Shown here piece by piece: positions 1,667 to 9,497 of a DNA stretch of 37,995 nt. Each line of letters starts with the position of its first letter. Within the stretch, counting starts at the first letter, position 1. Both the position numbers and the translations under genes were made by a program. The notes under the pieces were generated by a model, which did no database searches, was not told the origin of the DNA, and worked only from the letters and a program-made list of their open reading frames with translations. Origin of the DNA: Pirellula staleyi DSM 6068 (GTDB lineage Bacteria > Planctomycetota > Planctomycetia > Pirellulales > Pirellulaceae); the NCBI GenBank assembly GCA_945900945.1, contig CAMDKL010000042.1, positions 1 to 37,995 on the forward strand. Reading direction: 5' to 3'.

Positions 1667-1817
1667 GCTGGATTATTCATTAGCCGAACGGCCTTAACCC
1701 AACGGATCATCAACGACAACATGAGTGGCATTCCGCGGTCGCCCGATTCCACGATCAATCCCCTTTCTGGCCGAGCAAGCGACCAAAGGGCAACGCATGC
1801 TGAAAACCGTTAACTGA
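1667..1817. other. spacer between thyA and the BREX remnant
   Basis: No gene, clear hairpin or terminator is seen here. Short open frames exist in several phases but none gives a recognisable family. It may hold further eroded BREX sequence (upstream parts of brxC, brxA or brxB) too damaged to recognise by eye. Confidence 0.4.
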
Positions 1818-2877
1818 AGGGACGAGAACCTTACCCGGTTCGGGTTCCGCTTCGATCGAGGCAGTACCCACCTTGCCCGTTCGATCATGCTCGAAGATTT
1901 GCGGCAACTGCTACAGCAAGTGCCTAACCCAATGGCTATGCCACAAGAGATTGCTACCGCGATCGTGGACGGCAATTGTCTCGGCAAACGTTCCAAGAGT
2001 ACGCGTCAGCTAACGCTAAAGCATCTACGAGTCCCCCTCCGTTTTTGTGTTCATCCCAAAACGATCCGCCGGCGACTTACACCATCATTTGATTGATATC
2101 AAAGCCGCCACCGCCACGTTGGACAAACGTGGATCGCCGAACACTGCGGAAGGTTTAGAGGCCAAGACCGCAATCGAGACCACGAAGCAGACCGCAGAAG
2201 GAAAGATTCGTGAGTTGCTGGACGAATGGTTCTCGGGAGCCCGTGTATTTCAAGGTGGTGGGACCGAGGTAACTGGTAATGACTTACAGGGCATGATTGG
2301 CGAGGCAGCGGAAAAAGCGCTGCAACGACTGTTTCGGCACTTTGGCGTTTTCGATCACGATGGTTGGGGGAAAGTGTACGCCAATGCCAAGAAGGGTGCA
2401 CCGGATGCTCTTAAGGCAGTGGGCTTTGAGGGCGAGCTTGCTCAAAACCCGGTATGCAAAACGATTCTGGCATTTATTGGTCCGGGCAAAAAGGGAGCCG
2501 AGGTTCGGGACAAGTTTGAAGGGGCCCCTTAGGGTTGGTCTGGCGACTCGGTCGATGGTGGATTGCATGTTCTGCTGTTCGCTGGACTGATCCGAGCCGT
2601 CGACGATCGCGGCTCTACGCTCGATCCCAAGGAGATCGAACGCAAAGCTATCAGCAAAGCCACGTTCAAGGTCGAATCGACAACGGTTCCTACACCCCAG
2701 CGAATCCAGATCCGCAAAACCATGCAGCGGTTGGGGATTCCGGCAAAACAAGGTGAAGAGCTTGCGTCGCTGCCTAGACGAACTCTGAAAAGCGAAGCGG
2801 AAATTGATGAGTGGATCAACGATGTGCAAAAGCAACTCATCGCCACACTCGAAAAAGGCCCACTTGGAATTCAGTAA
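1818..2877 (+). pseudogene. brxC: brxC (BREX P-loop protein) remnant, C-terminal part
   Basis: Remnant of the large BREX ATPase BrxC, of which only about 340 codons remain from a protein usually near 1200 residues. The reading starts in the third frame (FRFDRGSTHLARSIMLEDL, then PQEIATAIVDGNCLGKR) and shifts near 2020-2029 to the first frame (VFVFIPKRSAGDL, DKRGSPNTAEGLEA, VFQGGGTEVTGNDLQ, RLFRHFGVFDHDGWGKVYANA, CKTILAFIGPGKKGAEVR). An in-frame TAG at 2530-2532 sits where the family has Tyr (AP-Y-GWSGDS); the same frame then continues with GWSGDSVDGG and ATFKVESTTVPTPQR. After LASLP the sequence jumps to a short C-terminal end (EAEIDEWINDVQKQL), implying an internal deletion. The N-terminal half with the Walker motifs is absent. 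Not expected to make a functional protein. Confidence 0.85.
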
Positions 2878-3038
2878 CATTAGCCGGAAGCGTAAGCGAG
2901 AATTTCCTATGAACCCAGCTGGAATTCAGTAACATTAGCCGGAAGCGTAAGCGAGAATTTCCTATGAACCCAGTTGGAATTCAGTAACATTAGCCCGACG
3001 CGTAAGCGAGGACCTTTCATCAAGGATTTCCTATGAAC
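2865..3038 (+). repeat. three 55-bp tandem repeats at the brxC end / RAYT start
   Basis: Units lie at 2865-2919, 2920-2974 and 2975-3038. The first two differ only in the last base; the third carries about 9 more bases. Each unit holds the last codons and stop of brxC (GGAATTCAGTAA), a REP-like core (TTAGCCGGAAGCGTAAGCGA or TTAGCCCGACGCGTAAGCGA) and the translation-start context of the transposase (ATTTCCTATGAAC). The array therefore arose by tandem duplication across the boundary between brxC and the transposase gene. Confidence 0.9.
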
Positions 3039-3749
3039 GACACACCAGCACTCTTTCTAACATGGAGCACATACGGAACGTGGTTGCCGGGCGATGCTCG
3101 CGGATGGACCGAGTATCACCGTGGTTGGCAGTTACCCGATCCGATATTGGAACTCGAGTCCAAAGCTAAAATGACCGAAGAGGCATGCCTCTTGGATAAA
3201 GAGCAGCGTAGCGCAGTCGAACAGCAAATTTCCGAAACTTGCGAGCATCGTGGCTGGCACTTACACGCAGTCAATTGTCGATCGAATCATATTCATGTTG
3301 TCGTATTGGCTGCTGATGTAAAACCCAAGAAGGTCCGTATTGACCTAAAAGCATGGGCCACTCGCTGTCTGAAAAACTTGGAAGCCAAACGGCAATCAGC
3401 CCAAAAACAAGCCCGAAGTGTAATCGAGGATGTACCCGAATCCTCGCTGACGCTTCGGGCTAATGTTATTCGTGAGAACTGGTGGACCGAGCGAGGAAGC
3501 ATTCGATTTATAAATGATGATGACTCACTTTTGGCTGCTATTGACTACACACTGGACGCGCAAGGTCGAAAAACAAACAAACTTCTTGACATCCGCACAA
3601 CAATTAGCCCGACGCGTGAGCGAGACGCAGAGCATAAACCCTCGATTACGCATGACCCCTCGCTTACGCATCGGGCTGGTGGACAAATAAAGCCCGATGC
3701 GTTAGCGAGGACCAATACCGACAGGAGACCGACGGATTATGAAAAGTAA
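3033..3749 (+). CDS. REP-associated tyrosine transposase (RAYT, Y1/HUH)
   Basis: A 238-residue protein of the RAYT / Transposase_17 (IS200-like Y1) group, single-strand DNA nucleases that recognise REP palindromes. The N-terminus LTWSTYGTWLPGDARGW is the hallmark of this subgroup, and the HUH metal site is NHIHVVV near residue 87. The catalytic Tyr is probably the one in AAIDYTLDAQG (about residue 172). The start ATG 3033 is fixed by the repeat junction. The last 45 residues or so are low-conservation and are encoded by REP-like repeats (3605-3710), so the C-terminal tail has been generated by repeat sequence. The frame is intact, unlike the BREX genes on both sides, so this looks like a later insertion. 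REP-like copies flank it on the 5' side and lie within its 3' end. Confidence 0.85.
   Translation: MNDTPALFLTWSTYGTWLPGDARGWTEYHRGWQLPDPILELESKAKMTEEACLLDKEQRSAVEQQISETCEHRGWHLHAVNCRSNHIHVVVLAADVKPKKVRIDLKAWATRCLKNLEAKRQSAQKQARSVIEDVPESSLTLRANVIRENWWTERGSIRFINDDDSLLAAIDYTLDAQGRKTNKLLDIRTTISPTRERDAEHKPSITHDPSLTHRAGGQIKPDALARTNTDRRPTDYEK
3605..3624 (+). repeat. REP-like core, direct copy
   Basis: TAGCCCGACGCGTGAGCGAG, differing in one base from the core at 2991-3010. It lies inside the 3' part of the transposase coding sequence and encodes SPTRERD. RAYT proteins are known to act on such elements near their own gene. Confidence 0.75.
3658..3710. repeat. inverted pair of REP-like cores (hairpin)
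   Basis: 3658-3677 (CCTCGCTTACGCATCGGGCT) and 3691-3710 (AGCCCGATGCGTTAGCGAGG) are reverse complements with one mismatch and a 13-nt loop, a 20-bp hairpin. A weaker third inverted copy lies just before it (about 3638-3652). The pair is inside the transposase coding sequence, 39 bases before its stop. In REP biology such convergent pairs (BIMEs) are the substrate form; here it could also form an mRNA hairpin that influences the overlapping downstream gene. Confidence 0.85.
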
Positions 3750-3942
3750 CGACTCCGAAACACGATCCCTTTTCGAGCTCGCCGATGCAGCTTTTCAGCA
3801 GGCAGCCAAAAAGGTAATCGAGCGTGCAAAAGCAACTTCGACCCCGATCATTTTGTGGATTAACAACCGGCCTCAAGAGTGCGATCCCAATCAAATTACA
3901 CTACCAACACCCGCGATTGAAAAACGGAGAACTGAAAACTGA
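3739..3942 (+). CDS. small hypothetical protein overlapping the RAYT
   Basis: A 67-residue protein whose ATG lies 11 bases before the end of the transposase frame, with AGGAG at 3723-3727 as a plausible ribosome binding site. The sequence has an amphipathic helix (ELADAAFQQAAKKVIERAKA) followed by a short strand pair (TPIILWINNRPQECDPNQI), reminiscent of small antitoxin-like or adaptor proteins. I do not recognise a named family. Its coupling to the transposase suggests it belongs to the inserted element, but it may be truncated at its C-terminus, where sequence switches to the methyltransferase remnant. Confidence 0.5.
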   Translation: MKSNDSETRSLFELADAAFQQAAKKVIERAKATSTPIILWINNRPQECDPNQITLPTPAIEKRRTEN

Positions 3943-4465
3943 AGACTTAATTGCCATCTCGATGGACGAAGCCGAAGACTTGGCACAAGAGCATGGCTTG
4001 AGGAATAAATGGGAGCTGGCAGCTCGAGTGGCGACCAGCATGTTACCGCAGATTTTCCGCGTTGAGTCGCCAGTGTTTGATATCTCACTACCACCAGAGC
4101 ATCAGCAGCAGCTGGAAAAGCTAATCAGCGGTTTACCAGTCGATGTATTTACGGCGTCTGATACATTGGGCTGGACCTATCAGTTCTGGCATATTCGACG
4201 GCTGGCCCAAGACCGCACAAGAATTGAAATGCCTCGACCTGTACATGGGTAGCGGGCATTTCGTGGTGGCGATGCTCGAACGGCTGGTGGCACTGCGCAT
4301 GGCCGAATAAAGCCTCGACGAGGCGTAGGCCGTAAAGGCAGGCATCCGCGACAACTTTTCGGCTTGGAAATCGACCCTCGTTGCACGCAGAATGCCGCTT
4401 TTAACGTTGCGTTGGCAGCATGGCGTCGAGTTGGCTATCTTGCTCTGCCATCGATGAACCTTGCC
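3936..4465 (+). pseudogene. pglX: PglX-like DNA adenine methyltransferase remnant (BREX)
   Basis: Fragments of a large Eco57I/PglX-type N6-adenine methyltransferase in three frames. The N-terminal part reads KWELAARVATSMLPQIF and then DTLGWTYQFW, matching the conserved 'GWxYQFW' region before the catalytic domain. After a large deletion, motif I is seen in another frame as LDLYMGSGHFVVAMLE (4233-4275; the usual Pro of LDPxxGSGHF is replaced). Two in-frame stops follow (the first TAA closing ALRMAE), then a shift to FGLEIDPRCTQNAAFNVALAAW (4355-4430), the region after motif II. The NPPF/NPPY catalytic motif and everything beyond are missing. Its position between brxC and brxL is the BREX position of PglX. 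PglX is the site-specific methylase that marks self DNA. Confidence 0.75.
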
Positions 4466-4825
4466 TGGCCAGGGGCACGCACGCTCCCGTTGTATCTTCG
4501 TCAGAACCTTGAATTTGACGTATTCCGGATCCTCGACCGAAACGTTTTGGCGGCCATTGCCACAAAACAGGAGACTATCTCGCCTGTTGAATTACGCGAG
4601 CATTTCGAGCATTTTCATGCCATTTTTGATGGGGACTTGGTCTATATTTGCGATCATATTGATGCATACCAACGAAAACGGTTGGTTGAGCAGAAAGTAC
4701 CGTTCGTGGTGCCTAGCAATCAACTTTACCTTCCAACCTTAGGGATCGATTTCCGGGATCACTTTCGGCAAGCGCCGAAGTCTTGGGACCAACTAAGCCC
4801 GCTAGCTCAGCTTGCGTACCTTTAG
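4466..4825 (+). pseudogene. MarR-like winged-helix protein fragment fused to the pglX remnant
   Basis: The second frame runs on from the methyltransferase remnant into an unrelated sequence: LPLYLRQNLEFDVFRILDRN, a helical segment TISPVELREHFEHF, then YQRKRLVEQKVPFVVPSNQL and YLPTLGIDFRDHFR. This resembles a group of bacterial proteins annotated as MarR-family regulators with a conserved 'KVPFIVPGNQxYLPxLGIDLREHF' signature. The assignment is from memory and moderate. The fusion looks like the product of a deletion that removed the rest of pglX and probably pglZ. The frame ends at 4825 where the brxL remnant begins in another phase. Confidence 0.55.
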
Positions 4826-6022
4826 CCGCCAATTCCCTGTCCCAACGTATGTGGTCGATTTTCTGCTTGTTCGCTACTGCGGTAGCACGGACCAGGAAGA
4901 AATTGAAGAGGGGATCAAGATCGTTCAAACGCAGATTGCCAATCGTACGGTCAAGGCTGGCGAGGAAGAACTTTTTAAATCGCGTTCACGAGAAAAGGGC
5001 GAGATTCGTATCATCGATTTGATCACTGCTAGGCTCGATGCCCGTACAGATTTCTATTTGGCGACGTTACCAAGTTTACAGCTTAACGACGTGCGAATTA
5101 ACCCTGAAATGGTTAACGAACACGAGCGAATGCTGACCGGCGGTTTTTATGCGGAGATCGGACTTACCTACGATGCTGCCATTGCGCAGGAAAAGAGCGG
5201 TAGGCCGTTTGCAATCGATAGTCTTCGCGAGATCCAGTTGTCTAAACGTGATGTTTTGGAAATGCTGGCGGCAGCTCGGGCTCAGTTTACTACTGCCGAC
5301 TGAAAGATGTTTTTACTACGCAGTATTGGTATCGCGGCGGACAGCCTTAGCGAGCATGCAAAAGACGCGTTCCTGTTGCGCATGGTGCCGTTCGTGGAGC
5401 GAAACTACAACTTGGTGGAGCTGGGGCCACGCGGTACAGGCAAAAGTCACTTGTTCCAGCAGGTCTCAGCCTATTCGCATTTGATCTCGGGCGGTAGAGC
5501 GACCGTCGCTCGCATATTTGTAAACATGTCTACCGATGAGGACTTGGAGTGGGCGGTTCGCATCGCAATGGAATGCCGTCGCTGCGTTAAAGAGCAGCAA
5601 AAGAGGGTCGGAGCGGAGAGTTTCGAAATACGCATTTCAGCTTTGTCATGGGCGATGACGGGGTCGGGAAATTCGTTTCGACACCGGAGTTGCAAAGCGA
5701 GGGTGCCATCGGGACAGATCCTCTTGAACCTGGACAAATATGGACCATTAGCCCTGGTGGGCAAGACGAATACCCAGGTTTGTACCGAGTCGAGGTCAAC
5801 GAAGGCCCAGGGGCAGGCGTGAAAGTGCTTAACAAGCCGGTACCGCAACCATTTAGGGAGTCGGTTGGGTTTGCAGAGCAGAACCTTTACACCCGATCCA
5901 ACCAACTTGTTGGTGACAAGGACCCACGCCAGCACGAGTTTAGCGTGCAGTTACGAGCTTTTGACGCTTCGAAACAGGGCTCCAAGCTTGGCGTAGCGTT
6001 GCTTAAGTCGATCCAGGATTAG
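4824..6022 (+). pseudogene. brxL: brxL (BREX Lon-like ATPase) remnant
   Basis: Remnant of BrxL, the Lon-like AAA+ protein of type 1 BREX. It starts at FPVPTYVVDFLLVRYCGST, lacking the first residues. At 5301-5303 a TGA stands where the family has Trp (AD-W-KMFLLRSIGI), in the same frame. The Walker A motif is intact in ELGPRGTGKSHLF (about 5418-5456). After RIFVNM (about 5528) the sequence jumps in frame to STDEDLEWAVRIAMECRR, so Walker B and most of the ATPase core are deleted. One base is lost near 5624 (FR-N-THFSF is expected), and the frame continues as FVMGDDGVGKFVSTPEL, PGQIWTISPGG, LYRVEVNEGPGAG and DPRQHEFSVQLRAFDASKQG. It stops at 6020-6022 after KSIQD, so the C-terminal protease-like domain is also missing. 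Confidence 0.88.
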
Positions 6023-6098: not shown

Positions 6099-9000
6099 AT
6101 GCGTACTTTTCATTCGAGCGCTCTACCTTCTGCTGCGTATCTTTCTTTCCTTTTGCTGTTCTACGTCGAGGCACACGATGCCATTGGCGGCGAGGGGGAT
6201 TGGGCGCACATGAAAAAGATCATGCCCAACGGTTACGTTTGCGGCACCGCGAGCGCTCCACTTCAGATCGATGGCAATCTGGATGAGGAGTCATGGAAAG
6301 CGGCTCCATGGACGGAAGACTTTGTTGATATTGAAGGAGTTAAAAAGCCGTTGCCCAGGTTCCGAACGCGCGCAAAGATGCTTTGGGACAATGACAATTT
6401 CTATATTGCGGCGGAGCTTTTCGAACCCCATCTGCAAGGTAATATCACAGAGCATGATGCCGTCATCTTTCAAGATAACGATTTCGAAGTTTTCATTGAT
6501 CCAGATAGCGACAACCACGAATACTACGAACTCGAGCTGAACACCCTCAATACCACTTGGGATTTGTTCATGCCTCGTCCCTATAAAGACGGAGGCGGTG
6601 CCGAGAACCAATGGGAATTTTCAGGCCTCAAGACTGGCGTTCATCTCAATGGATCACTCAATGACCCTAGCGATCAAGATTCATCGTGGAGTGTCGAGAT
6701 TGCGATCCCTTGGTCTGCTTTTTCGACGCAATCGCATCGAGTTGCTCCTCCGCAAAACGGAAAGAAATGGCGAATTGATTTCTCGAGAGTCCAGTGGCAA
6801 TTCGAATCAGTCGATGGCAAATACAAGAAAGTTCCTAATACAAAAGAAGACAATTGGGTTTGGTCACCCCAGGGAATCATCGATATGCATCGGCCAGAAC
6901 GCTGGGGCTTCGTTCAGTTCTCGAACGAGTTGCCAGGGACTGTTAAATTCAATCCGGATTCAAGTCTTGCTAGCCGCGATTTGCTGATGGAAGTCTACCA
7001 TCGCCAACGGGCTTTTCATGCAGCGCATGGCAAGTGGGCTAAGAGTTTTTCAGAACTTGATTTTGTGGCTGGCTCTGGAATTGGTTCTGAAAAATTTACA
7101 ATGTGCGCCACTGCGGACGGCTATCAAGCATCGGTGATAGTTTCCACTGGCGCAGAATCGCAGGAGCTTTGGAATGTGCGACAGGACTCTAAGATCTGGA
7201 AGTCTATGGAAAATGGACTTGTCCAACAAGCGTTGCATCGAGCGGGTGAGAACCAGACGCAATTACGTCGAGCACTGGACTCCAGCCCCATCGAACAGCG
7301 AGAGGGAATGGAGTTTCTGATTGCAAACATGCCTGAACGGGATTTGCGGACTTTGACGTCGGAATTCTTGTTGGAAGAAGTTCGTTTAGCCTACCTCGCG
7401 TGGGACAAGTCACCGTGGAGGAATGACATACCCAAAGAGGTCTTCTTTAATAACGTGTTGCCGTATGCGAATATCAATGAGCGCCGCGATTCGTGGCGCA
7501 AGGATTTTAGTGAACGCTTTGCACCTCTCATTGCAGGGGCCAAGACGCCTGCACTAGCTGCCGCCCGTCTCAATCAAAAGCTGTTCCCGCTCTTAAATGT
7601 CAAGTACTCGACCAAACGTCCCAAAGCCGATCAGAGTCCGTACGAGTCGATTCATTCGGGGACCGCTTCGTGCACTGGTCTCTCGGTGTTGTTAATTGAT
7701 GCTTGCCGAGCGCTTGGTATTCCAGCAAGATTTGTGGGAACGCCACTTTGGTCAGACAAGAGCGGAAACCACTCGTGGGTGGAAGTATGGGATGACGGTT
7801 GGCATTTCACAGGTGCTGCCGAACCCAATGGCGACGATTTGGACAAAGCTTGGTTTCTAGATCGTGCTTCGACCGCCAAACGCGATGACGCGATGAATGC
7901 GATTTATGCAGTCAGTTTCCAACGGACGCCAGTTCACTTCCCGCTGGTCTGGGATAGATCGATCGATTACATCAGCGCTGTCAATGTTACTGACCGCTAT
8001 GTCGACCGTGGAGCCAAACCGCCCGAGGGTTCGACGCGAATACTGTTGCGTGTTCTGGATCGGGCGACTGGACTAAGGCTTGCTGCGGCCGTAAAGGTCT
8101 TCGACGCCGATAGCAAGCTGGTATTGGAGGGGACAACCAAGGACGAACGCTTCGATGCAAACGATTATCTCAATGTTGTTTTGCCAATAGGCAAAAAATA
8201 TAGTTTGGAAGTTCGGGATGGGGAAAATACAAACAAAAGTACTTTTGTTTCGGAACAACGCGATCGCCCGATTACGGTTAGTCTCGATACCGAAGTTTCC
8301 GTATCGGCCAACGAGCAAAATAGATCTGCTACAGCTGTCGCTTCGTTGGCCAAATTCCTCACGCTTCCAACGGACGAACGACCACTCATTGCCGAGCAGC
8401 CGTTTGCAATCGTTCCGCTCGCCAAGAAAGACGTTGTGGAGGCAACCCAACTTTTGTGGAGGGACCACGTCGAACGGATTCGCTCCTCCCGTTCAGAGGA
8501 AATGTCTGCTCGCGTTTTGACGCTGGGGGAATTGAAGATGCGATTTTCCTACGAAGTTTTTGGCGAAAAGCCTTCAACGGGTCGTAGCCTGTTTATTTCC
8601 ATGCATGGCGGTGGCGGAGCACCTACGAAAGTAAATGATCAGCAATGGGAAAATCAAAAGAAACTGTATCGACTTGAGGAAGGGGTATACGTCGTTCCTC
8701 GAGCACCAACGGATACTTGGGATTTATGGCATCAATCGCATATCGATCGATTCTTTGACAGGTTGATCGAGAACATGCTTGTGTTGGAAGACGTGAATCC
8801 AAACCGAATTTACATCATGGGCTATTCTGCCGGTGGTGATGGTGTGTATCAGCTTGCTCCACGCATGGCGGACCGTTGGGCGGCAGCATCGATGATGGCT
8901 GGCCACCCAAACGAGACGTCCCCATTAGGCCTTCGTAATCTTCCTTTCACTCTTCATATGGGCGAAAAGGACGCTGCTTATAATCGCAACAAAACAGCAA

Positions 9001-9497
9001 GCGAGTGGGAAAAGAAAATGGCCGATTTGCATCGCGACGATCCGGATGGATACAACCACGAGGTCAGGATCCATGCAGGCAAAGGTCACTGGATGGATCG
9101 CGAGGATGCGGTTGCGATCCCATGGATGGCCAAATGGAATCGCAATCCTATTCCAACTCGCATTGTGTGGAAGCAGGACGATGTAATAGGAAATCGATTC
9201 TACTGGCTAGCGATCGAACCAATGGACATCCAGGGACGGGCAGAGATTGTCGCAACACGATCCAATAACACGATCGACATACAGACCAAAGACGCCGACC
9301 GAGTTTCCGTTCGTTTGAGCGACGCTATGGTTGATCTCGACAAACCCATTTCAATCACCTGTGGCAGTTCCTCTCTCTTTCAAGGAATTGCACCTCGAAC
9401 TATTGAACACTTAGCAGTCACACTCTCAGAACGGGGTGATCCGAAAGCGATTTTTTGTGCTGAAGTCAAGGTGTCGATTCCGAAAGACAAACCCTAG
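6099..9497 (+). CDS. secreted CBM9 / transglutaminase-like / esterase-like fusion protein
   Basis: A 1132-residue protein with an N-terminal signal peptide (AAYLSFLLLFYVEAHDA). Residues about 45-275 resemble a CBM9-type carbohydrate-binding domain (PLQIDGNLDEESWKAAPW, FQDNDFEVFIDPDSDNHEYYE, WSVEIAIPW). About 510-600 is a transglutaminase-like core with Cys in TASCTGLSVLLIDACRALG (about 524), His in NHSWVEVWDDGW (about 557) and a following Asp region (KAWFLDRAS). About 825-1015 is an alpha/beta hydrolase of the PHB-depolymerase/esterase kind: HGGGGAP as oxyanion region, the nucleophile elbow GYSAGGDG (about 907), and a late His in GKGHWMDR. The product is probably periplasmic or outer-surface and acts on a glycan- or ester-linked polymer; the substrate is unknown. 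It appears monocistronic, following the BREX remnant by 76 bases. Confidence 0.8.
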   Translation: MRTFHSSALPSAAYLSFLLLFYVEAHDAIGGEGDWAHMKKIMPNGYVCGTASAPLQIDGNLDEESWKAAPWTEDFVDIEGVKKPLPRFRTRAKMLWDNDNFYIAAELFEPHLQGNITEHDAVIFQDNDFEVFIDPDSDNHEYYELELNTLNTTWDLFMPRPYKDGGGAENQWEFSGLKTGVHLNGSLNDPSDQDSSWSVEIAIPWSAFSTQSHRVAPPQNGKKWRIDFSRVQWQFESVDGKYKKVPNTKEDNWVWSPQGIIDMHRPERWGFVQFSNELPGTVKFNPDSSLASRDLLMEVYHRQRAFHAAHGKWAKSFSELDFVAGSGIGSEKFTMCATADGYQASVIVSTGAESQELWNVRQDSKIWKSMENGLVQQALHRAGENQTQLRRALDSSPIEQREGMEFLIANMPERDLRTLTSEFLLEEVRLAYLAWDKSPWRNDIPKEVFFNNVLPYANINERRDSWRKDFSERFAPLIAGAKTPALAAARLNQKLFPLLNVKYSTKRPKADQSPYESIHSGTASCTGLSVLLIDACRALGIPARFVGTPLWSDKSGNHSWVEVWDDGWHFTGAAEPNGDDLDKAWFLDRASTAKRDDAMNAIYAVSFQRTPVHFPLVWDRSIDYISAVNVTDRYVDRGAKPPEGSTRILLRVLDRATGLRLAAAVKVFDADSKLVLEGTTKDERFDANDYLNVVLPIGKKYSLEVRDGENTNKSTFVSEQRDRPITVSLDTEVSVSANEQNRSATAVASLAKFLTLPTDERPLIAEQPFAIVPLAKKDVVEATQLLWRDHVERIRSSRSEEMSARVLTLGELKMRFSYEVFGEKPSTGRSLFISMHGGGGAPTKVNDQQWENQKKLYRLEEGVYVVPRAPTDTWDLWHQSHIDRFFDRLIENMLVLEDVNPNRIYIMGYSAGGDGVYQLAPRMADRWAAASMMAGHPNETSPLGLRNLPFTLHMGEKDAAYNRNKTASEWEKKMADLHRDDPDGYNHEVRIHAGKGHWMDREDAVAIPWMAKWNRNPIPTRIVWKQDDVIGNRFYWLAIEPMDIQGRAEIVATRSNNTIDIQTKDADRVSVRLSDAMVDLDKPISITCGSSSLFQGIAPRTIEHLAVTLSERGDPKAIFCAEVKVSIPKDKP

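Follow-up and report, generated by a model that had tools for sequence, protein, structure and literature searches.

Remains of a probable type 1 BREX operon with a RAYT-type block between brxC and pglX in a Pirellula staleyi DSM 6068 assembly

Between thyA and a gene at position 6099, the stretch of 37,995 nucleotides analysed here (the window) carries a series of fragments on the forward strand, and the question is which genes they derive from and how they came to lie there. The first-pass annotation had read them as a decayed type 1 BREX defence island. Comparison with BREX families and with loci of other genomes makes it very probable that positions ~1797-6022 are a decayed type 1 BREX operon in which the original gene order has been kept: family matches, order and strand fit this reading, and an intact locus of the same genus (L018, from genome G009) is collinear with it. 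L018 is also the best whole-locus reference, with the arrangement brxA-brxB-brxC-pglX-two other ORFs-pglZ-brxL. The relic is real, and it is also a fairly ordinary genome fossil.

The surviving pieces

The BREX parts run, on the forward strand, from the N-terminus of brxA through the middle and true C-terminus of brxC to pglX, a piece of an accessory gene and brxL. Together with the block that separates brxC from pglX, the features are:

1797-2030, forward strand: brxA N-terminal remnant, approximately residues 1-73 of 260 (PADLOC and alignment to L018)
2030-2775, forward strand: middle part of brxC, with an in-frame stop at 2530 (PADLOC BrxC, E 2e-60 and 5e-23)
2758-2877, forward strand: last 39 residues of brxC and its stop codon (46% identity to residues 730-768 of L096 brxC, E 9e-7)
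2859-3023, forward strand: three tandem 55-bp units made of the brxC end and a REP-like 19-mer
3033-3749, forward strand: open RAYT-like (Y1/IS200-like) transposase ORF, 238 aa (Pfam Y1_Tnp)
3739-3942, forward strand: small 67-aa ORF overlapping the RAYT end (alignment to a small ORF of the second BREX)
3920-4201, forward strand: pglX piece 1, approximately residues 97-193 of L018 pglX (PADLOC PglX, E 3e-36)
4182-4355, forward strand: pglX piece 2, residues 279-336 (79% identity to L164 pglX over 58 codons)
4355-4474, forward strand: pglX piece 3, residues 337-376, after a frameshift (75% identity to L164 pglX)
4439-4822, forward strand: accessory-gene piece (alignments to L117 and L148)
4812-5528, forward strand: brxL residues 24-262, Walker A present and in-frame stop at 5301 (alignment to L123 brxL)
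5535-5624, forward strand: brxL residues 437-466, in frame after a loss of ~170 residues (80% identity)
5612-6022, forward strand: brxL residues 463-596, after a frameshift (78% identity to L123 brxL over 134 residues)

PADLOC and the alignments recover BrxC, PglX and BrxL fragments, broken by stops, frameshifts and deletions, in the order and on the strand first reported, and the profile search that had been proposed as a check adds BrxA to these three families. NCBIfam and Pfam agree with PADLOC on the BrxC and BrxL pieces; the BrxA and PglX pieces have no NCBIfam match, and every match scores under the curated full-length NCBIfam cut-off, as expected for fragments. Chance can be excluded as the source of the matches, because the identities of brxC, brxL and pglX to intact proteins are 71-80%. 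The earlier inventory of four parts holds for these three genes; it overlooked the brxA fragment, the RAYT ORF with its REP palindromes and the accessory piece (~4439-4822).

The brxA gene had been counted as lost. An N-terminal fragment of it survives (PADLOC BrxA, E 1.1e-22 at 1818-2045), 39% identical to L018 brxA over 62 aligned positions, and since 1818-2045 matches BrxA the relic starts near 1797-1818. The original start of brxA may have been the ATG at 1797, and the in-frame stop at 1815 is counted as a lesion only in that case. From this remnant the alignment passes straight into the middle of brxC, a jump across the remainder of brxA, the whole of brxB and the N-terminal half of brxC, so the proposed loss of the brxC N-terminus is borne out. 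The middle part is 71% identical to L096 brxC over 259 codons (E 6e-96 if the stop is treated as X). Its left border is uncertain, as the BLAST alignment reaches 1999, crossing two stops; the stops at 2011 and 2017 are doubtful, sitting in the overlap of the brxA and brxC alignments. An internal deletion of ~219 residues separates this part from the C-terminus of brxC, which continues in frame and ends with its stop at 2875-2877. The presence of this C-terminus rules out a brxC 3' end wrecked by the RAYT block.

The start of pglX is lost beside that block. PADLOC gives a second PglX match at 3e-8, and piece 2 covers the methyltransferase motif I region, where one invariant residue is changed. 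The accessory piece that follows, whose true left border lies at ~4466-4476, is 38% identical (E 9e-27) to a gene of L117 and 34% identical (E 6e-18) to one of L148 (Stieleria sedimenti), and these are the two loci that it matches among the 84 BREX loci searched. In both, a nucleotidyltransferase-like gene and then pglZ come after the accessory gene, and L117 has a pglX piece upstream of it. This match to genes upstream of pglZ therefore indicates that the relic keeps a trace of the cargo between pglX and pglZ. In L117 the accessory gene is a putative MarR-like partner of an AbiEii-like nucleotidyltransferase, where the Pfam matches are weak (MarR_2 2.8e-5 and AbiEii 0.0076, both under the cut-off), and L148 has none. 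The possibility that 4476-4823 is a remnant of PglZ was ruled out, four PglZ queries giving no match there while the L117 and L148 accessory genes do. The Stieleria sedimenti BREX (L148 4828-7594) has several other ORFs upstream of pglZ, the accessory pair included.

The long piece of brxL is 80% identical to L123 brxL over 239 codons (E 2e-120). PADLOC BrxL matches have E values of 7e-56, 3e-44 and 1e-27, and Pfam detects BrxL_N (3e-36) and BrxL_ATPase (1e-36). The gene is truncated at its 3' end, with the last 85 residues missing and a stop at 6020. Among the best 80 of 131 relatives found, the closest brxL relatives are L088 (a Candidatus Anammoximicrobium MAG) and L123 (a Planctomycetota MAG), which are 79-80% identical to the relic and, in contrast to it, have their own brxL and pglZ open and full-length. 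In 396 genomes of the order, the best identity to the brxL piece is 65%.

Missing genes and the extent of decay

The reported loss of brxB and pglZ agrees with our searches, in which two BrxB queries (from L018 and L164) and four PglZ queries gave no match in the window at E <0.05. The PglZ family search of the genome matched contig C181 only, and the same-type PglX query matched only the three pieces in the window. Set against type 1 BREX as PMC9240713 describes it, the relic has four of the six core genes (brxA, brxC, pglX and brxL), in the order and strand of intact L018, but it is without brxB and pglZ and each remaining core gene is truncated. The losses comprise the BrxC N-terminus with its P-loop, BrxB and PglZ in full, the greater part of the PglX methyltransferase and a large share of the BrxL AAA+ core. 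Since most of the BREX machinery is missing, the relic would not be expected to provide phage defence.

In-frame stops inside aligned homology lie at 2530, 4308, 4326 (the last two in pglX piece 2) and 5301, and there are two frameshifts, near 4355 and at 5612-5624. Eight junctions can be counted: six internal deletions, the lost start of pglX and the truncated end of brxL. With aligned residues summed, 942 of the 4184 core residues of L018 survive (~22%). Deletions, four stops and two frameshifts leave the operon too broken to act as a type 1 BREX.

Decay was also assessed as changes at residues at least 97% conserved among relatives, with a leave-one-out control for every relative; the relatives, drawn from 80 loci with a minimum alignment coverage of 90% of the piece, numbered 77, 71, 23, 43, 48 and 48 for the six pieces. 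The long brxL piece (4812-5528) has 10 of 106 invariant residues changed, against at most 5 of 110 in controls (n=77). In pglX pieces 1 and 2 the changes amount to 2/21 and 3/15, values reached by 0/43 and 0/48 controls, respectively. No excess was found in brxL 5612-6013 (3/52 changed, with 6/71 controls as high), in brxC (0/23) or in pglX piece 3 (0/14). Decay is real but uneven, and overall brxL identity is still near 80%. That the relic is recent, as had been suggested, is supported in part: brxC, the C-terminal brxL piece and the third pglX piece are free of excess changes, whereas the long brxL piece and two of the three pglX pieces already have them; no close sister locus was found by which it could be dated.

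The same genome carries pieces of a second, different BREX at the ends of two contigs that may belong to one locus. The end of C254 holds brxA and brxB and breaks off after residue 88 of brxC, and C181 opens with a pglZ that lacks its start, after which come a zeta-toxin-like gene, a small ORF and a 679-aa brxL; these pieces correspond to L210 4934-6496 and L023 55-4803. A pglX for this second BREX was not found in the genome. Its BrxA, BrxB, BrxC and PglZ fall in other PADLOC subfamilies, and its BrxL is 34% identical to that of the relic.

The RAYT block between brxC and pglX

From 2878 to ~3919 the sequence is not BREX: REP repeats, the open RAYT ORF and a small ORF lie directly 3' of the brxC stop. 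Units 1 and 2 of the 55-bp tandem contain a copy of the RAYT leader with its ATG, and short start-stop mini-ORFs result. The RAYT ORF passes the Pfam Y1_Tnp cut-off marginally (6e-5, 23.6 bits against a cut-off of 23). It is the only copy in its own genome and has homologues at E up to 1e-20 in 67 of 199 genomes of the family, which align around an H-x-H motif and a Tyr that we take to be the Y1/HUH-type transposase motifs.

REP-like palindromes number eight in the window (six in the genome-wide pattern count), with a shuffle mean of 0.01, and the pattern occurs 14 times in the whole genome, with 0 in the reversed control. The ORF combines a marginal Y1/HUH domain with palindromic REPs that adjoin the gene and are dispersed in the genome. 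As in the RAYTs with REP palindromes presented in PMC2817692, a Y1-like ORF is flanked by palindromic repeats; unlike what is given there, this genome has 14 pattern matches and not hundreds, the RAYT lies in a defence relic and a REP hairpin sits inside its own ORF. This hairpin (3410-3461) is in frame and encodes ~20 extra residues, a peptide absent from 13 readable homologues (16 of 29 loci were dropped).

A RAYT as a regular part of BREX was considered and rejected: none lies between brxC and pglX in L018 or L164, and RAYT query pieces match 0 of 84 BREX loci. L018 has full-length genes and no RAYT at this point, whereas the relic has truncated genes and the RAYT block. The 67-aa ORF has no Pfam match and is 40% identical over 50 aa (E 3e-6) to L023:2551-2700, which lies after the zeta-toxin-like gene, between the pglZ and brxL of the second BREX.

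Origin of the relic

A complete type 1 BREX (brxA-brxB-brxC-pglX-accessory genes-pglZ-brxL) would once have occupied the space from thyA to the 6099 gene. The RAYT-type transposase gene and its REP palindromes would have come to adjoin the brxC stop, possibly before decay began, since the stop next to the RAYT block is undamaged. Once selection had ceased, successive deletions, stops and frameshifts would have left ordered fragments on the same strand. The searches turned up no close sister in which this locus is intact, and that the operon was once whole here is therefore an inference. It is doubtful that colonisation by REP and RAYT helped to dismantle the operon, a speculative causal role in which the palindromes and RAYT-type single-strand activity beside brxC would have promoted local tandem duplication and deletion. 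If true, the locus would capture a mobile element in the course of reshaping a defence island.

A literature search at title and abstract level (BREX pseudogenes, remnants, RAYT) returned no description of a decayed BREX operon. The relic adds a case in which deletions have destroyed one BREX in a genome where pieces of another are present; it also illustrates that profile searches of short frames recover parts, such as brxA and the accessory gene, that resemble hypothetical ORFs. This is useful for annotating the turnover of defence systems and leaves ideas of BREX mechanism unchanged.

Three other explanations were weighed. That an intact BREX exists and its reads were collapsed or chimerically joined during assembly is highly improbable: the assembly is in 313 contigs and the other BREX is split at contig ends, but collapse of the two is unlikely because they belong to different subfamilies, with BrxL 34% identical, the missing same-type pglX and pglZ occur nowhere else in the genome, and the stops and changed invariant residues fall inside aligned pieces. 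There is an equally slim chance that the remaining ORFs, such as brxL 4812-5303 and the RAYT, were kept for another function. The RAYT ORF is open, and brxC, the C-terminal brxL piece and pglX piece 3 are free of excess decay; yet the long brxL piece is decayed in excess, the BREX fragments lack complete domains and the RAYT is not a BREX gene.

It is unlikely, to a lesser degree, that a full operon never stood here and that transfer or recombination brought in a degraded island already in pieces. Here the surroundings are relevant. The thyA and methyltransferase gene pair upstream of the relic is kept in all 12 thyA stretches fetched from relatives, DNA similarity to relatives ends at the thyA end and returns only within the 6099 gene, and the intact BREX sought after thyA in a related genome did not appear: BREX queries gave no match in the 12 stretches, two of which have less than 1.6 kb after thyA (493 and 1558 bases). 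None of these stretches contains a homologue of the 6099 gene, although in draft genomes separate contigs are not proof of separation. In G006, a single contig, thyA and the 6099-gene match are 1.8 Mb apart, the match covering part of the protein and possibly being a paralogue. As the two genes are not linked in the relatives examined, the relic lies at a synteny break, which speaks for arrival in a broken state. Against it, operon order and strand are fully kept; the two histories are separable only with sister genomes, and decay in place of a once complete type 1 BREX is the reading that we favour. The 6099 gene itself is a 1132-aa ORF (6099-9497) with a homologue in all 27 genomes of the genus.
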